NCBI RefSeq assembly: GCF_021117385.1
Contig: NZ_CP088252.1
Coordinates: forward strand, 620,001 to 684,000
DNA: 64,000 nt
Source of the DNA: Frateuria soli
Lineage (GTDB): Bacteria > Pseudomonadota > Gammaproteobacteria > Xanthomonadales > Rhodanobacteraceae
Reading direction: 5' to 3'
Part shown: positions 5,721 to 44,807 of the stretch, one piece after another
Position numbering within the stretch: the first letter of the stretch is position 1
Layout: every line of letters starts with the position of its first letter
The notes under the pieces: model-generated
The model's database searches: none
The model's input: only the letters and a program-made list of their open reading frames with translations
What the model was told of the DNA's origin: nothing
Made by a program: the position numbers and the translations under genes

Positions 5721-6093
5721 GCGCCAGACACGCCTCGGCCCTCAAGCTCCCTGTCCCCCGGTTTCTGCCGGGGGAGAGGGTTGGGGAGAGGGGGAGGCCT
5801 TTCGCTCGGGCTCTGGCTTTTGAAGTGCTCGTTTGCCTGTCGGCCGGATCCTGGAAGAACGACATGCCTTCCTGTGCGCGCTTTTCTGAAGGGATTGAGG
5901 CGCAGGGCAAAGGCCTCCCCCTCTCCCCAGCCCTCTCCCCCGGCGTGGCCGGGGGAGAGGGAGTTGCGTGCGGCGGCTTCTAGCTCTTCCGCTTTCCGAT
6001 TTCCCGATTTCCCGATTTCCCGATTTCCCGATTTCCCGATTTCCCGATTTCCCGATTCCCGATTCCCGCCTCCCGATTCCCAGCTCCAGAACC
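5721..6093. repeat. Repeat-rich gap between fliP and fliQ
   Basis: No gene supported. It holds CTCTCCCC/GGGGAGAGG palindromes near 5755-5790 and 5917-5965. A tandem array follows: seven perfect copies of GATTTCCC from 5998 to 6053, then GATTCCC at 6054-6060 and 6061-6067, a degenerate unit, and one more GATTCCC ending near 6080. The array ends only 13 bases before the fliQ start. A minus-strand frame through it encodes a repetitive NREIGKSG peptide and looks spurious. Confidence 0.9.
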
Positions 6094-8316: not shown

Positions 8317-10410
8317 ATGGCCGCCGCTGGCGCAATGGAAAGTCTCAAGCAGCTCGGGCGCCGCGGCGTCGGCGCGCCGGTGGTCATGCTGGCGATGCTG
8401 GCGATGGTCATGCTGCCGATGCCGCCGTTCCTGCTGGACATGCTGTTCAGCTTCAACATCGCGCTGTCGCTCGTCATTTTGTTGGCGGTGATCTACGTGA
8501 TGCGGCCGCTGGAATTCGCCGCTTTTCCGACGGTCGTGCTGATGGCGACGCTTTTACGTCTCGCCCTGAACATCGCCTCCACCCGCGTGGTGTTGCTGCA
8601 CGGCCACGACGGCCCGGGGGCGGCCGGCAAGGTGATCGAGGCGTTCGGCGAGTTCGTGATCGGCGGCAACTTCGCGGTCGGCTTCGTGGTGTTCGCGATC
8701 CTCACCATCATCAACTTCGTGGTGGTCACCAAGGGCGCCACCCGAGTGTCGGAGGTGACCGCCCGCTTCACCCTGGACGCGATGCCCGGCAAGCAGATGG
8801 CGATCGACGCCGATCTCAACGCCGGCCTGCTGACCCAGGAACAGGCCCGCGAGCGCCGCCAGGAAGTACGCGAGGAAGCGGACTTCTACGGCTCGATGGA
8901 CGGTGCCTCCAAGTTCGTCCGTGGCGACGCCACCGCCGGCATCCTGATCCTGTTCATCAACGTCATCGGCGGCTTCTTCGTCGGCATGTTCCAGCACGGC
9001 CTGCCGGCCGGCGAATCGGCCAGGACCTATACGCTCCTCACCATCGGCGACGGCCTGGTCGCGCAGGTGCCGGCGCTGATGCTCTCGATCGCCACCGCGG
9101 TGATCGTCACCCGCGTGTCCAAGTCGCAGGACATGGGCAAGCAGGTGATCGGCCAGGTGTTCGGCCAGCCGCGCGCGCTGGCGGTGGCCGGCGCGGTGCT
9201 GGGCGTGATGGGCCTGATCCCGGGCATGCCGAACCTCGCTTTCCTGCTGCTCGGTGGCTGCTGCGGTGGCGCGGCCTACCTGATGATCAAGCGCGAGCGC
9301 GAGACCAGGGAAAAGCTCGCCGAAGCCGTAGCCGAGCCGACCGCCGCGCCCGCACTGCCGGCCGAGCGCATGGAACTGGGCTGGGACGACGTGGCCAGCG
9401 TCGATCCGCTCGGCCTCGAAGTCGGCTACCGGCTGATCCCGCTGGTGGACACCCATCAGGGCGGCGAGCTGATGGGCCGGATCAAGTCGGTGCGCCGCAA
9501 GCTCTCGCAGGAATTCGGATTCCTGGTGCCGGCGGTGCACATCCGCGACAACCTGGACCTGGGCCCCAACACCTACCGCATCACCCTGATGGGTGTGCCG
9601 ATGGGCGAGGCCGAGGTGCACCACGAGCGCCTGATGGCGATCAATCCCGGCCGCGTGCACGGCCCGCTGCAGGGCATCCAGACGCAGGACCCGGCGTTCG
9701 GCCTGGAAGCGGTCTGGATCGAGCAGGGCCAGCGCGAGATGGCGCAAAGCCTGGGCTACACCGTGGTCGACCCGGCCACCGTGGTCGCCACGCATCTGTC
9801 GCACATCCTGCAGACCCACGCGCACGAGCTGATCAGCCACCAGGACGTGCAGCAGCTGCTCGACCGCCTGGCGCAGACCGCGCCGAAGCTGGTCGAGGAC
9901 CTGGTGCCCAAGCGCATGGCGCTGGGCGTGGTGGTCAAGGTGCTGCAGAACCTGCTGGCCGAGCGCGTGCCGATCCGCAACATGCGCACCATCGTCGAAA
10001 CCTTGGCGGAGCACGCGGGGCAGAGTCAGGATCCCGGCATGCTCACCGCCGCCGCGCGCGTCGCGCTCGGCCGGCAGATCGTGCAGGAGATCACCGGCCT
10101 GGGCACCGAGGTGCCGGTCATCACGCTGGCGCCGGAGCTCGAGCAGATCCTCATGAATTCCCTTTCGGGCGGCGGCGTGGCCGGCGCGGCGGTGGAACCG
10201 GGCCTGGCCGACCGCCTGCAGCAGAGCGTCGCCGACGCCGCGCGCCGCCAGGAAATGAGCGGCGAAGCGGCCGTCCTGCTGGTCGCGCCGCAGCTTCGCC
10301 CGTGGCTCGCCCGCTTCACCCGCCACGTGGCACAGAACCTGCACGTACTGGCCTACAACGAGGTGCCGGACAACCGCAGGGTGCGGCTGGTCCAGGCGCT
10401 GGGACGGTAG
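8317..10410 (+). CDS. flhA: FlhA, flagellar export gate protein
   Basis: A 697-residue protein of normal FlhA length. The N-terminal half has about eight transmembrane helices with the FHIPEP-family stretch between them (GDATAGILILFINVIGGFFV and the TKGATRVSEVTARFTLDAMP loop). The C-terminal half is the nonameric cytoplasmic domain that receives chaperone-substrate complexes. The ATG at 8317 follows AGAAGGAA at good spacing. It ends the fliL-flhA block; a repeat-bearing gap separates it from flhF. Confidence 0.98.
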   Translation: MAAAGAMESLKQLGRRGVGAPVVMLAMLAMVMLPMPPFLLDMLFSFNIALSLVILLAVIYVMRPLEFAAFPTVVLMATLLRLALNIASTRVVLLHGHDGPGAAGKVIEAFGEFVIGGNFAVGFVVFAILTIINFVVVTKGATRVSEVTARFTLDAMPGKQMAIDADLNAGLLTQEQARERRQEVREEADFYGSMDGASKFVRGDATAGILILFINVIGGFFVGMFQHGLPAGESARTYTLLTIGDGLVAQVPALMLSIATAVIVTRVSKSQDMGKQVIGQVFGQPRALAVAGAVLGVMGLIPGMPNLAFLLLGGCCGGAAYLMIKRERETREKLAEAVAEPTAAPALPAERMELGWDDVASVDPLGLEVGYRLIPLVDTHQGGELMGRIKSVRRKLSQEFGFLVPAVHIRDNLDLGPNTYRITLMGVPMGEAEVHHERLMAINPGRVHGPLQGIQTQDPAFGLEAVWIEQGQREMAQSLGYTVVDPATVVATHLSHILQTHAHELISHQDVQQLLDRLAQTAPKLVEDLVPKRMALGVVVKVLQNLLAERVPIRNMRTIVETLAEHAGQSQDPGMLTAAARVALGRQIVQEITGLGTEVPVITLAPELEQILMNSLSGGGVAGAAVEPGLADRLQQSVADAARRQEMSGEAAVLLVAPQLRPWLARFTRHVAQNLHVLAYNEVPDNRRVRLVQALGR

Positions 10411-10608
10411 AGCCGGGATGACGGCATTCGGGATTCGAGATTCGGTGAGGCCTGGGATGAGGGGATTCGTGATGGGAGATCCGGAAAGGCGAGCGATGAC
10501 GCGAGTTTGCGACGGCTCGGCTTTTAACGAATCCCGAATCCCGAATCTCGACTCCCGACCTGCCCAATCCCGAATCCCGAATCCCGAATCCCGCTTGCGG
10601 AGCAAGCA
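10411..10608. repeat. GGGATTC/GAATCCC repeats between flhA and flhF
   Basis: The gap contains GGGATTC-type units near 10428-10445 and several GAATCCC units from 10529 to 10592, some degenerate, including three perfect copies in tandem at 10572-10592. The two sets are in opposite orientation and could pair into a long stem. No gene or clear promoter is visible. Confidence 0.8.
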
Positions 10609-11976
10609 ATGAAGATCAAACGTTTCGTGGCGCCGGACATGCGCCAGGCGATGCGCGAAGTACGCGAGGAGCAGGGGCCGGATGCGGTGATCCTGTCCAC
10701 GCGCAAGCTCGACGAAGGCATCGAGATCATCGCCGCCGTCGATTACGACGAGGCGCTGGTGCGCGAGGCCGCGCGCCATGGGGCGGCCCCTGCGCCGGCC
10801 GCCGAACCGCCGGCCTTGCCGACGCGTGCTGCCGCGCCACCTCCGCCGCCGCCGGTGCGCGAGGCGCGCGTCGAAACACTGGCGCCCGCCAATCACCCGT
10901 CGCCGGTCGACCCCGCTCTCCGTAGGAGCCCACTCGTGGGCGATGCTCTTCCCGCCAACACCAACACCAACACCAACGCCAGCGACGCGGGCCTCGACCC
11001 GCGCGCCGGGGAGCCGCCGGCCGTCCACCCGCTGATCGAACGCGCCGCGCAGGACACCGTGCGCATGCGCGCCGAGCTGTCCAGCCTGCGCGAGATGCTC
11101 GAGATGCAGCTCTCCAGCCTGGCCTGGAACGACATGGAACGCCGCCAGCCGATGCACACCCGCGTGCTGCGCGAGCTGACCCGGCTCGGCATCGACGCCG
11201 ACGTCGCCCGCGCGCTGGCCGATGAACTGCCGCCGCAGATGACGCCCGAGCAGGCGCGCTACCTGCCGCTGGGCATGTTGAGCCGGGGCATCGCGGTCAG
11301 CGGTCGCGGCCGCTCGGACGAGGCCGGCGTCACCGCGCTGGTCGGCCCGACCGGCGTGGGCAAGACCACCACGCTCGCCAAACTCGCCGCCAAGGCGGTG
11401 GTGCGCCATGGCGCCTCGCAGGTCGCGCTGGTCAGCACCGACCACTACCGCATCGGCGCCGCCGCGCAGCTGGAGCACTACGGCCGCCTGCTCGGCGTGC
11501 GCGTCTATCCGGCCTACGACGCTGACAGCCTGCGCCAGGTCCTTCAATTGCTGAAGGGGTGCCACACCGTGCTGGTCGACACCGCCGGCCTGGCCGGCAA
11601 CGACCCGCGCCTGGCCGAACAGCTGGACGCACTGCGCGCGGCAGGCGAGCTGCGCGCGTGCCTGGTGCTGGCCGCCAATGCGCAGGCGCAGTCGCTGGAG
11701 GACGCGGTGCGCGCCTACCTGCCGGTCAAGCCGCACGCGGCGATCCTGACCAAACTCGATGAGGCGCCCAGCCTCGGCGGCGCCCTGTCGGTGCTGATCC
11801 GCCACCGGCTGGCGCTGGACTACACCACCGACGGCCAGCGGGTGCCCGAGGACATTGCCGCCGCCGACGCGCGCCTGCTGGTGTGCCGCGCCGCGCGGGC
11901 GCTCAAGGGCAACGCGCCGGGCGCCGACGAGGCAGTACTGGCCGAGCGCTTCGGAACGATGGTGGCCCAGGCATGA
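10609..11976 (+). CDS. flhF: FlhF, SRP-type GTPase for flagellar placement
   Basis: A 455-residue protein. An N-terminal basic B domain starts MKIKRFVAPDMRQAMREVRE. A long Pro/Ala-rich linker follows (about 60-140), then the NG domain with P-loop VGPTGVGKTTTLAKLA, the STDHYRIGAAAQLEHY segment and VDTAGLAG. FlhF recruits early flagellar parts to the cell pole. The linker contains an in-frame REP-like element (10922-10950, read as RRSPLVGDAL) and four CCAACA/CCAACG units giving an Asn-Thr run. The stop overlaps the flhG start. Confidence 0.97.
   Translation: MKIKRFVAPDMRQAMREVREEQGPDAVILSTRKLDEGIEIIAAVDYDEALVREAARHGAAPAPAAEPPALPTRAAAPPPPPPVREARVETLAPANHPSPVDPALRRSPLVGDALPANTNTNTNASDAGLDPRAGEPPAVHPLIERAAQDTVRMRAELSSLREMLEMQLSSLAWNDMERRQPMHTRVLRELTRLGIDADVARALADELPPQMTPEQARYLPLGMLSRGIAVSGRGRSDEAGVTALVGPTGVGKTTTLAKLAAKAVVRHGASQVALVSTDHYRIGAAAQLEHYGRLLGVRVYPAYDADSLRQVLQLLKGCHTVLVDTAGLAGNDPRLAEQLDALRAAGELRACLVLAANAQAQSLEDAVRAYLPVKPHAAILTKLDEAPSLGGALSVLIRHRLALDYTTDGQRVPEDIAAADARLLVCRAARALKGNAPGADEAVLAERFGTMVAQA
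10922..10950 (+). repeat. REP-like element inside flhF coding sequence
   Basis: The 29 bases starting GTAGGAGCCCACTCGTGGGC match the REP unit at 44733-44761 in nearly all positions; the first 25 bases differ only by C/T in the palindrome centre. Here it is read in frame within the FlhF linker as RRSPLVGDAL. The palindrome is GAGCCCAC/GTGGGC. Confidence 0.9.
10955..10978 (+). repeat. CCAACA hexamer array in flhF
   Basis: Three perfect CCAACA units followed by CCAACG, directly downstream of the REP-like element. They encode Ala-Asn-Thr-Asn-Thr-Asn-Thr-Asn in the flexible FlhF linker. Unit length is a multiple of three, so copy-number change would keep the frame. Confidence 0.9.
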
Positions 11977-12917
11977 GCGGAATCCTTGCAATGAATCAGG
12001 CGTGGGGCTTGAAAGACATGTTCAACGCGATCACGGGCGAGCGTCACGACGCGCCGCCCGCACCGCACCGGCCGGACCAGGCGGCCAACGCCGGCGCGCC
12101 GCGCCGTCGCTGCCGCGCGATCGCGGTGGCCGGCGGCAAGGGTGGCGTCGGCAAGACCACCGTGGCGGTCAACCTCGGCATGAGCCTGGCCATGGCCGGT
12201 CGCGACGTCATGCTGCTGGACGCCGACATGGGCCTGGCCAACGTCGACGTGCTGCTCGGCCTGGCGCCCTCGCGCCACCTCGGCCACCTGCTCGACGGCT
12301 CGGCCACGCTGGAAGAGCTGGTACTCGATGCCCCGCACGGGCTCAAGGTGATCCCCGGCGGCTCCGGCGCGCGGCGCCTGGCGCAACTGGGCAATGGCGA
12401 GCACGCCGCGGTGATCCGCGCCTTCGACGAGCTGCCCCGGCCGCCGGACTACCTGCTGGTCGACACCGCCGCGGGCCTGTCGGACAACGTGGCGATGTTC
12501 GCTGCGGCGGCCGACGACGTGGTGCTGGTGGTCTGCGACGAGCCGGCCTCGCTCACCGACGCCTACGCACTGATCAAGGTCCTCTCCCGCGACTTCGGCG
12601 TGCGCCGCTTCCGCTTCGTCGCCAACCTGGTGCGCAACCTGGGCGAGGCCCGCGCGCTGCACCAGAAGCTGGCCAAGGTCAGCGACCGCTTCCTGGACGT
12701 GGTGCTGGACTTCATGGGTTTCGTGCCGCAGGACGAGCGGCTCAAGCAGGCCATCCGGCGCCAGAGCGCGGTGGTCGACCTGTGGCCGGCGGCGCGTTCG
12801 TCGCAGGCATTCAAGCAATTGGCAGGTGCGGTCGATAACTGGGAGGAACCCGCGCGCGCGGGCCTGGACCGCATCGCGTTCTTCGGTGGCCAGGCCGTGA
12901 CGGCGTCGGGGTGGTGA
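11973..12917 (+). CDS. flhG: FlhG (FleN), MinD-like ATPase for flagellar number
   Basis: A 314-residue P-loop ATPase. The N-terminal helix MNQAWGLKDMFN resembles the DQAxGLR-type peptide that activates FlhF GTPase. The deviant Walker A motif is AVAGGKGGVGKTT, and VMLLDADMGLANVDVLLGL is the MinD/FleN signature. It limits flagellar number, in pseudomonads also by restraining FleQ. The ATG at 11973 overlaps the flhF stop, the usual flhF-flhG-fliA order. Confidence 0.97.
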   Translation: MSGILAMNQAWGLKDMFNAITGERHDAPPAPHRPDQAANAGAPRRRCRAIAVAGGKGGVGKTTVAVNLGMSLAMAGRDVMLLDADMGLANVDVLLGLAPSRHLGHLLDGSATLEELVLDAPHGLKVIPGGSGARRLAQLGNGEHAAVIRAFDELPRPPDYLLVDTAAGLSDNVAMFAAAADDVVLVVCDEPASLTDAYALIKVLSRDFGVRRFRFVANLVRNLGEARALHQKLAKVSDRFLDVVLDFMGFVPQDERLKQAIRRQSAVVDLWPAARSSQAFKQLAGAVDNWEEPARAGLDRIAFFGGQAVTASGW

Positions 12918-12918
12918 G

Positions 12919-13734
12919 ATGAGCGTGGCATCGGAATATCTCCAGCTGCAAAAACAGAGTGCGGACGAGTTGGTGCGCCAGCACGCGCCACTGGTGCGTC
13001 GTATTGCCTATCACCTGATGGGGCGGTTGCCGCCAAGCGTGGACGTGGGCGACCTGATCCAGTCCGGCATGATCGGCCTGCTCGAAGCCGCGCGGCACTA
13101 CGCCACCGATCGCGCCGCCAGCTTCGAGACCTATGCCGGCATCCGCATCCGCGGCGCCATGCTGGACGAGCTGCGCAAGACCGACTGGACCCCGCGCTCG
13201 GTGCACCGCAAGGTGCGCGAAGTCGCCGAAGTGGTGCGCCAGATCGAGATCGAGACCGGGTCCGACGCCGGTGACGCCGAAGTCATCAAGCGCCTGGGCG
13301 TGAGCGCGGAGGAGTACCACCAGATCCTCGCGGATGCCGCCAGCGCGCGCCTGCTCAGCCTCACCGCGCCGGACGACGGCGACGGCGCACCCGCGTTCGA
13401 CGTGGTCGACCAGGCCAGCCTGGGACCGGCCGAGAACATCGAACAGGACGGGCTGCGCCAGGCGCTGATCGACGGCATCGCCGGCCTGCCCGAGCGCGAG
13501 CAGCTGGTCATGTCGCTCTACTACGAGCAGGAATTGAACCTGAAGGAAATCGGCGCCGTGCTCGGCGTGACCGAGTCGCGCGTGTGCCAGATCCACGGCC
13601 AGGCGATCGTGCGGCTGCGCGCGCGCATGGGCGATTGGCGTGAGGACGGGATTGGGGATTCGGCAGTCGGGAATCGCAAAGGCAAAGGCAAAGGCCGGCG
13701 CGCTTCCCCGCCCGATCAATCCTCTCCACGTTGA
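12919..13734 (+). CDS. fliA: FliA, flagellar sigma-28 factor
   Basis: A 271-residue sigma factor. Region 2 contains [20 protein letters not shown] and [19 protein letters not shown]; region 4 contains [20 protein letters not shown]. Normal FliA ends at about GDWR. Here about 28 extra residues follow, read through GGGATT/GGGAATC repeat bases (13650-13674), a (GGCAAA)3-type run giving KGKGKG, and a basic tail. Four sigma-28 promoter matches are present in the window (23647, 23813, 26872, 30598). The ATG at 12919 lies directly after the flhG stop. Confidence 0.96.
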
Positions 13735-13743
13735 CACCCCATT

Positions 13744-13785
13744 GAATCCCGAATCCCGAATCCCGAATCCCGAATCCCGAATCCA
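13744..13785 (+). repeat. GAATCCC tandem array before cheY
   Basis: Five perfect GAATCCC heptamers (13744-13778) and a sixth unit with one change (GAATCCA). The array ends 13 bases before the cheY start codon, a similar spacing to that of the GATTTCCC array before fliQ. Confidence 0.93.
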
Positions 13786-14861: not shown

Positions 14862-16790
14862 ATGGACCCCTCACTCGACGCCGAACTGCGCGACGACTTC
14901 CTGGTCGAGGCCGGGGAGCTGGTCGAGCGCCTGTCGGAACAACTGGTCGAGCTGGAAGCCAGTCCGCGCGACGCCGAACTGCTCAACGCGGTGTTCCGCG
15001 CGTTCCACACGGTCAAGGGTGGCGCCGGCTTCCTCGCCGTCGAGCCGATGGTGCAGCTTTGCCACCATGCCGAGGATCTGCTCAACGTCGCCCGCAACGG
15101 CGCGCTGGTGCTGGACTCGGCCAGGATGGACGCGCTGCTCGAAGCGCTCGACCTGCTCAACGCGATGATGGATGCGCTGCGTGGCGGCGCGTCCATGGCG
15201 ATGCCGCCGCCGGCGCTGCTCAAGCGGCTTATGCCGGGTGCGGCGGCACCCGCACCGGCGCCGCCGCCGGTCGCCGCGCCCGTGGCGCCGCCGGCGGATG
15301 GCAGCATCGACGACAGCGAATTCGAAGCCCTGCTCGACAGCCTGTACGGCACCGCCGCGCCGGGTACCGTGCCACCGGCCGCGCCCGCGCCCGCGACCAT
15401 CAACGACGACGAGTTCGAAGCGTTGCTGGACAACCTGCACGGAACCGCGGCACCGGGTGCCAGCGCCCCGACACCCGGCAACAGCATCGCCGACGACGAG
15501 TTCGAGGCCCTGCTCGACAACCTGCACGGCAAGGGCGGTGCGCCCGGTGCCGTGCCGGCCCCGGCGCCTGCCGCTCCGGCACCCGCACCGGCGCCCGCCC
15601 GCGCGGCCGCGCCGGCCGAGACCAGCGTGCGCGTGGACACCGGCCGGCTCGACGCGCTGGTCAATCATGCCGGCGAACTGGTGCTGGTGCGCAACCGTCT
15701 GCAGAGCCTGGCGCAGAAGAGCGGCGACGAAACCCTGGCGCAGGCCGCGGCCGAACTCGACCGCGTCGCCGATGAAATGCAGGGCGCGGTGCTGGCCATG
15801 CGCATGCAGCCGGTCGGCCGGCTGTTCCAGCGCTTCCCGCGCATCGTGCGCGACCTCGCCCGCCAGCTCGGCAAGGAAGTGGACCTGGTCACCGAAGGCG
15901 AGGGCACCGACCTGGACCGCAGCCTGGTCGAGGCGCTGGCCGATCCGCTGATCCACCTGCTGCGCAACGCGCTCGACCACGGCCTGGAGATGCCGGAGGA
16001 GCGTCTGAAGGCCGGCAAGTCCCGTCGCGGCACCGTACGCCTGTCCGCCAGCCAGCGTGGCGAGCGCATCGTCATCGCGGTGAGCGACGACGGCCACGGC
16101 ATGAATCCCGAGGTGCTCAAGCGCAAGGCGGTCGAGAAGGGCGTCATCGACGAGGCCCAGGCCGCGCGCCTGACCGAGAACGAATGCTACGAACTGATCT
16201 TCCGCCCGGGGTTTTCCACCGCCGCGCAGATCTCCGACATCTCGGGCCGCGGCGTCGGCATGGACGTGGTCAAGACGCGCGTGGCCGAACTGGGTGGCAC
16301 CCTCGCGGTGCGCTCGAAGCTCGGCCATGGCAGCGAGCTGGAGCTGACCGTGCCGCTGACCCTGGCGATCCTGCGCGTGCTGATGGTGCGCGTGGGCACG
16401 CGCCTGTTCGCACTGCCGCTGTCCAACGTGGAGGAGGTGTTCGAACTGGCCGCCGGCCAGGACCGCATGCTCGATGGTCGCCTGGTCGCCAACCACCGCG
16501 GCCGCGCGCTGCCGCTGGGCGACCTGGCCGGCTGGGCCGGCGTGCTCGGCGCCGCGCCGCGCCACGTGGTGGTGCTGCACGTCGGCCACCAGCGCATGGG
16601 TTGCCTGGTACACGAGGTGCTGGGCCGCGAGGACGTGATGGCCAAGCCGCTGGGGCCGCTGTTCGAGGGCGTGCCCGGCATTGCCGGCGCCACCGTCACC
16701 GGCGACGGCGCTCTGGCGCTGGTGCTGGATCTTTCCGGCCTGGCCGACGATGGCGGGCAGTTGCTGCCGTCGCTGAGGGCGGCGGGCTGA
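14862..16790 (+). CDS. cheA: CheA histidine kinase, first copy (motor-control set)
   Basis: A 642-residue kinase. The P1 Hpt domain has phospho-acceptor H49 (RAFHTVKGGAGF). An Ala/Pro-rich linker of about 140 residues takes the place of a folded P2 domain. It carries three copies of a motif D[DS]EFEALLD[SN]L[YH]G, at about residues 148, 184 and 214. P3, the HATPase domain (LLRNALDHGLE, VSDDGHGMN, GRGVGMDVV) and a P5 CheW-like domain follow. The gene lies in cheY-cheZ-cheA-motC-motD-cheW order; no cheB follows it, unlike the Pseudomonas arrangement. Confidence 0.96.
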   Translation: MDPSLDAELRDDFLVEAGELVERLSEQLVELEASPRDAELLNAVFRAFHTVKGGAGFLAVEPMVQLCHHAEDLLNVARNGALVLDSARMDALLEALDLLNAMMDALRGGASMAMPPPALLKRLMPGAAAPAPAPPPVAAPVAPPADGSIDDSEFEALLDSLYGTAAPGTVPPAAPAPATINDDEFEALLDNLHGTAAPGASAPTPGNSIADDEFEALLDNLHGKGGAPGAVPAPAPAAPAPAPAPARAAAPAETSVRVDTGRLDALVNHAGELVLVRNRLQSLAQKSGDETLAQAAAELDRVADEMQGAVLAMRMQPVGRLFQRFPRIVRDLARQLGKEVDLVTEGEGTDLDRSLVEALADPLIHLLRNALDHGLEMPEERLKAGKSRRGTVRLSASQRGERIVIAVSDDGHGMNPEVLKRKAVEKGVIDEAQAARLTENECYELIFRPGFSTAAQISDISGRGVGMDVVKTRVAELGGTLAVRSKLGHGSELELTVPLTLAILRVLMVRVGTRLFALPLSNVEEVFELAAGQDRMLDGRLVANHRGRALPLGDLAGWAGVLGAAPRHVVVLHVGHQRMGCLVHEVLGREDVMAKPLGPLFEGVPGIAGATVTGDGALALVLDLSGLADDGGQLLPSLRAAG

Positions 16791-44732: not shown

Positions 44733-44807
44733 GTAGGAGCCCACTTGTGGGCGATGCTCTGCACTGGTGCCTCAGGGCAAGGGCATCGCCCACAAGTGGG
44801 CTCCTGC
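44733..44807. repeat. Paired REP-like element between cdd and nitroreductase
   Basis: Left arm GTAGGAGCCCACTTGTGGGC... (44733-44757) and right arm (44783-44807) are reverse complements at 24 of 25 positions, with a 25-base loop. The left arm is the same element found in the flhF coding region at 10922. Confidence 0.93.

Follow-up and report, generated by a model that had tools for sequence, protein, structure and literature searches.

The window analysed here, a 64,000-nucleotide stretch of DNA from Frateuria soli, whose genome (G000) comprises 3.49 Mb on a single contig, carries flhF on its forward strand (10609..11976). The gene encodes a protein of 455 aa made up of a conserved N-terminal part, a linker and an NG GTPase domain. 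Profile searches returned a match to the FlhF model TIGR03499 of 258.3 bits (cut-off 174.15) and assigned residues 241-425 to the SRP54 GTPase family (PF00448), and among 20 FlhF proteins compared, 37 of the first 54 residues were invariant. One reading frame holds both the conserved N-terminal part and the SRP-type GTPase domain, by which the protein belongs to FlhF. Between the two lies the linker (10780..11016, forward strand; residues 58-136), which is predicted to be disordered: in an AlphaFold2 model of the window FlhF made with 19 relatives (mean pLDDT 73.4, pTM 0.54), pLDDT was below 50 at residues 58-77 and 82-136 and both flanks were ordered. The linkers of relatives differed widely in length and sequence, and the lengths of FlhF proteins spanned 409-537 aa (reads reaching query residue 451 or beyond).

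A GTAG REP core within flhF

GTAG REPs are mostly intergenic, yet in several species they lie within ORFs and are read as protein, with mis-called 5' ends a stated caution for such cases (PMC3733652, BMC Genomics 2013). In the linker-coding part of flhF, the bases at 10922..10946 (forward strand; GTAGGAGCCCACTCGTGGGCGATGC) are an exact, single-copy GTAG REP core of type A (CCCAC/GTGGG), with GTAG at its start, 0 mismatches to the 25-base pattern and all fixed bases matching. Codons from 10921 read it as RRSPLVGDAL, residues 105-114, just as a first-pass annotation of this DNA had described, and the annotation's report of a nearly identical REP at 44733 was borne out as well, 27 of 28 bases (GTAG to TCT) being alike in the two copies. 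Since the REP shares its frame with the conserved N-terminal part ahead of it and is followed by the GTPase domain, it is truly inside flhF and does not reflect a mis-called 5' end. Capture in frame would be easy, since a stop codon occurs in only one of the six frames of the REP and the other five are open. As DNA, the core is an imperfect palindrome within the 20-40 bases of GTAG REPs, with a GCCCA/TGGGC stem of -4.9 kcal/mol, at a z of only -0.93 for this single copy. The CCCGCTCTCC directly upstream of GTAG (10912..10921, forward strand) resembles the pyrimidine-rich run that precedes many genomic copies; in 90 sampled copies, flhF's included, the bases before GTAG were GCTCTYC in 11 and four pyrimidines in 56.

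Because the linker is GC-rich and of low complexity, a coding sequence might come to look like a REP by chance. Against this, the fully matched 25-base pattern did not occur once in any of 100 shuffles of the window, close relatives lack the element at this position, and the genome holds 317 copies of the core at up to 3 mismatches, compared with one for the reversed-pattern control, so that a chance match can be ruled out for all practical purposes. Membership in this high-copy family, together with the variable presence of the element in relatives (see below), supports the annotation's proposal that a palindrome was here probably turned into coding sequence.

The REP might also form a hairpin in the mRNA of flhF and there affect stability, pausing or the control of folding, its reading as protein being a side effect. 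The F. flava (G002) insert with part of a neighbouring palindrome does give a strong RNA fold, of -37.2 kcal/mol (z -3.51). Relative to shuffles, however, neither the window REP (z 0.25) nor that of G003 (z -0.10) folded any better, and an Rfam search of window 10300-12100 at E <=1 returned a single match, a sub-threshold sul1 at 10790-10814, upstream of the REP. On these results a conserved RNA structure is unsupported for the window copy, and we regard a role in the mRNA as very improbable.

The resident REP family and its presence in relatives

We compared the flhF copy with an intergenic inverted REP pair (REPIN) at 44733..44807, whose two opposed copies lie at 44733-44757 (forward strand, 0 mismatches) and 44783-44807 (reverse strand, 1 mismatch) and whose DNA forms a hairpin of -39.1 kcal/mol (z -9.83). 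An inverted partner lay within 120 bases at 70 of the 90 sampled REP sites, while the flhF copy is single, with no inverted partner within that distance. A tandem REPIN array of six REP pairs, regularly spaced by 152-153 bases, was observed elsewhere in the genome (G000:C1, about 15208-16051). The genome resembles the published REPIN/RAYT system in its REP family, its inverted pairs, its associated transposase and the nearly complete confinement of REPs to extragenic DNA; the flhF copy, as a singlet, is unlike the pairs of that system (PMC3116915, PLoS Genet 2011).

Coding context was scored at 92 sites, namely the 90 sampled non-randomly (30 with listed loci and 60 hand-picked) and the flhF copies of G002 and G003; these amount to 82 distinct clusters, as sites of one array repeat each other. 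In a lenient test, two of the 92 sites were open and coding-like on both sides, those in flhF of G000 and G003, the G002 flhF copy being missed. A periodic Markov score gave the same frame as coding on both sides at seven of the 92, six of which had a stop between, leaving flhF, and this score missed two of the three known flhF copies. By a crude codon score, one of the 90 REP sites was intragenic, that of the window flhF. The family is accordingly a mainly extragenic one by tests of imperfect sensitivity, as coding scores are weak in disordered linkers and REPs in other linkers could escape them. Stop-to-stop ORFs of at least 150 aa were rejected as a coding test, since they spanned 77 of the 90 sites and are useless in this GC-rich genome. 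The intragenic rate among sampled sites is of the same order as in P. fluorescens SBW25, in which the commonest REP 16-mers are reported to overlap genes in 14 of 1,067 occurrences (PMC3116915).

Six genomes of the genus were compared: G000, G001, G002, G003, the MAG G004 and G005 (F. terrea). All six have flhF, and the flhF REP is present in three (G000, G002 and G003) and absent in G001 and G005; none was found in the readable part of the G004 gene, which is divided between two contigs, the break lying a few codons ahead of the REP's place. A clear flhF match was found in 77 genomes, 71 of them from other genera, of which four (G006, G019, G026 and G031) were left out as their gene is split over contigs. 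None of the 67 other-genus flhF genes read had the REP in a scan for its 8-base start, G[TC]AGGAGC, or the complement, which other REP types could escape; single 8-mers in G005 and in each of three genes from other genera had no REP core behind them. The alignment of close relatives' flhF that the first-pass annotation had suggested as a check therefore shows a variable insertion, and the pattern that would have spoken against its reading, namely identical bases in the flhF of distant genomes otherwise devoid of REPs, was not seen: none of the 67 had them, and the carriers hold 44-278 REP copies (types A and B together at up to 1 mismatch, with intermediates counted twice).

The carriers of the flhF REP are the REP-rich genomes. 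At up to 1 mismatch, copies of type A and type B numbered 237/41 in G000, 178/45 in G003 and 12/32 in G002, compared with 2/1 in G001, 0/1 in G005 and 0/0 in G004, one-arm intermediates being counted under both types. They are also the sole genomes of the genus in which the model NF047646 of the REP-associated tyrosine transposase (RAYT) scored above its 80-bit cut-off (G000 126.7, G002 184.7, G003 188.6); scores were 72.5 in G001 and 79.6 in G005, and G004 gave no match. The co-occurrence of RAYT, REP abundance and flhF insert is suggestive, being a comparison of three genomes with three in which G005 falls 0.4 bit short of the cut-off and G004 is 86% complete. In G000, REP copies flank the RAYT gene (about G000:C1:3474410-3474925) on either side, as is typical of GTAG REPs, which is not so for the RAYTs of G002 and G003, where no such REP lies within 1.5 kb. 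A second RAYT-like gene of G000 (G000:C1:841025-841434) is split across two frames and apparently broken.

G000 and G003 both encode RRSPLVGDAL, and G002 encodes a version with one residue changed (V to A). Such near-identity, and retention in frame across three species, might point to a function of the insert, in which RRSPLVGDAL or the spacing that it provides tunes FlhF, e.g., its polar targeting or the binding of a partner. We consider this hardly credible, since the peptide is missing from G001, G005 and the readable part of G004 as well as from all 67 flhF genes read in other genera and lies in a stretch predicted to be disordered, and since its near-identity is equally expected of a young or converted repeat. 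That the linker would simply tolerate the insert, as first proposed, fits its predicted disorder and the length spread of FlhF.

Other repeats in and around the linker

The REP is adjoined, in agreement with the first-pass annotation, by a CCAACA hexamer array that encodes an Asn-Thr run (10955..10981, forward strand; TRF period 6, 4.5 copies) and is one of three period-6 arrays in the window with a TRF score of at least 40. At the same place in flhF, a hexamer array is absent in G003, while F. flava has a GCCAAC array that exceeds the window's in length; in the F. flava linker this array is preceded by the REP, and the REP by a CCCTCTCCC/GGGAGAGGG palindrome of 43 bases. The palindrome recurs in longer form, with no REP in the readable part, in the G004 linker and, apparently decayed, in that of G003 (by eye). 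Its core is itself a genomic repeat, with 33-212 copies per genome in the six genomes and 0-3 for the reversed control, and a copy outside flhF (5919..5961, forward strand) differs from the F. flava flhF element in 3 of 43 bases (by eye). The palindrome in F. flava and G004 has the same core as the intrastrand-triplex CCCTCTCCC/GGGAGAGGG repeats, which in E. coli MG1655 are reported to be intergenic without exception (PMC4666352, NAR 2015). The likeness is one of motif: the E. coli triplex motif has an extra repeat arm and is intergenic (PMC4666352), whereas the flhF palindrome is shorter and intragenic. When plasmids were searched for copies with a 91-base query, only short matches to the hexamer part were found, in nine records, none of which covered more than 40% of the query.

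Further repeats were observed nearby. Close behind the palindrome at 5919-5961 stands a nine-copy CCGATTTC array (5996-6068), followed by a frame that we take to be fliQ-like. A 93-base repeat of 2.5 copies (15302-15529) encodes repeated DDEFEALLDNLHG-like units within a presumably cheA-like gene and is perhaps another repeat-grown linker near flhF. A protein that we assume to be sigma-factor-like contains GKGKG close to its C-terminus, encoded by an array of the hexamer GCAAAG (13676-13695). Heptamer arrays (GAATCCC/GGGATTC) occur upstream of flhF at 10422-10593 and at 13744-13779, the latter ahead of a presumably response-regulator-like gene; with up to 1 mismatch allowed, a 15-mer of these arrays matched the window 12 times, including at 13647, against a mean of 0.01 in 100 shuffles.

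Origin of the insert

Taken together, these results make it highly probable that the insert in flhF derives from the GTAG REP family resident in these bacteria, having entered the part of the gene that encodes the linker, and that it was kept since it does little harm. Movement of the REP would presumably have been driven by the RAYT. The insert would then have been retained as near-neutral, the linker being predicted to be disordered and variable in length and the frame into the GTPase domain being open, while the adjoining hexamer array may grow and shrink through slippage in units of two codons. Spread among lineages would have occurred by recombination or by repeated insertion. No target-site footprint was seen at the flhF REP. 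Mobile insertion is also counted against by the single REP in flhF, since the inverted pair is the mobile unit proposed in PMC3116915, and it is weakened by the lack of a REP within 1.5 kb of the RAYTs of G002 and G003.

Whether one insertion or several took place bears on how the three copies are related. The cores of G002 and G003 differ at two of 25 bases, and these are exactly the two paired positions of the stem by which types A and B are told apart. This pair, noticed post hoc, is one given of 300 possible pairs (calculated by hand), so that chance is an unlikely source of it. The flhF REP is of type B in G002 and of type A in G000 and G003, in each case the commoner subtype of its genome. 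The two-base difference could possibly reflect conversion by another REP, or else a pair of substitutions or the separate insertion of two REPs; one-arm-changed intermediates occur in the genomes, where types A and B are both common families. If different REPs had been inserted separately at one linker spot in different species, and no single insert had spread, the match between each copy and its genome's commoner subtype would follow. The CCCGCTCTTC shared before GTAG proves little against this, since it precedes other REPs as well (L161 in G002; 82005 and 1954376 in G000), and the recB genes of X. campestris and X. oryzae are reported to hold different REPs at roughly one position (PMC3733652). 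G002 and G003 are, however, also alike further out, in GCAG and in a similar upstream palindrome and spacer (by eye), and they have in common a 24-base junction, GCAGCCCGCTCTTCGTAGGAGCCC, of which, with up to 3 mismatches allowed, each of the two genomes has one occurrence, that in flhF. Sharing of this junction would speak for one event, within limits: it weighs less because the last 20 of its 24 bases also precede another G002 REP (L161). At 2-3 mismatches, junctions like GCAGCCCGCTCTTCGTAGGAGCCC numbered five in G000 and one in G001, and the window flhF junction, at 4 bases off, falls outside the search at up to 3 mismatches. On balance we judge separate insertions to be unlikely, if by no means negligible.

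The distribution of the insert also departs from the local gene tree. In a tree of the flhF 3' part and flhG, G001 groups with G000 and G002 (100/99); by piece, flhG supported the grouping at 91/93 and the 3' part of flhF at 84/91, and the poorly resolved flhA piece did not recover it. The G001 linker is without the insert, and its residues KPVR resemble those of the REP-less G005 (by eye). Since G001 groups with two carriers yet lacks the insert, a single insertion followed by simple descent with loss is awkward, and the pattern calls for recombination between lineages or for repeated insertion. Over the whole linker, REP included, identity was 81.9% for G002-G003, 78.6% for G000-G002 and 76.6% for G000-G003, other pairs reaching 63.3-72.8%. 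Ahead of the insert, it was highest for G000-G001 (86.4%), followed by G002-G003 (85.2%) and G001-G002 (82.6%), a pattern that favours neither one insertion nor several.

More doubtful still than separate insertions, although worth stating, is the proposal that the flhF REP continues to be converted by other REPs, such that the two arms of the stem change in concert and the amino acid encoded there (V in type A, A in type B) tracks the commoner subtype of the host, unlike the drifting linker. It would draw on the two-base stem difference between the F. flava and G003 cores, which seem to occupy one and the same insertion point.

The flhF REP is like the published intragenic GTAG REPs in being a GTAG-tagged palindrome read as protein (PMC3733652). 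It differs in its host gene, flhF encoding a flagellar-placement GTPase while that paper stresses genes of DNA synthesis and repair, and flhF is not named in its section on intragenic REPs (section 15); presence and absence among relatives and predicted disorder are what the present analysis adds to it. Rickettsia palindromic elements likewise place a palindromic repeat in frame in protein genes (as cited in PMC3733652); compared by description, RPE-1 is a longer palindromic insertion than the single REP in flhF, which measures about 25-39 bases. Within the open-licence literature, we found no paper that joins flhF with intragenic palindromic repeats. The flhF insert is a clear case of a genomic repeat becoming protein, although not an unprecedented one, the kind of event having been published (PMC3733652). 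The disordered FlhF linker collects three kinds of repeat, namely the REP, the CCCTCTCCC palindrome and the hexamer array, which helps to explain the differences between the linkers of different species. It also provides a small, clean system in which the presence, absence and subtype of an intragenic palindrome can be traced across six related genomes, and if the arm-by-arm switch between G002 and G003 is conversion, concerted evolution of a selfish repeat would here be acting on protein sequence.
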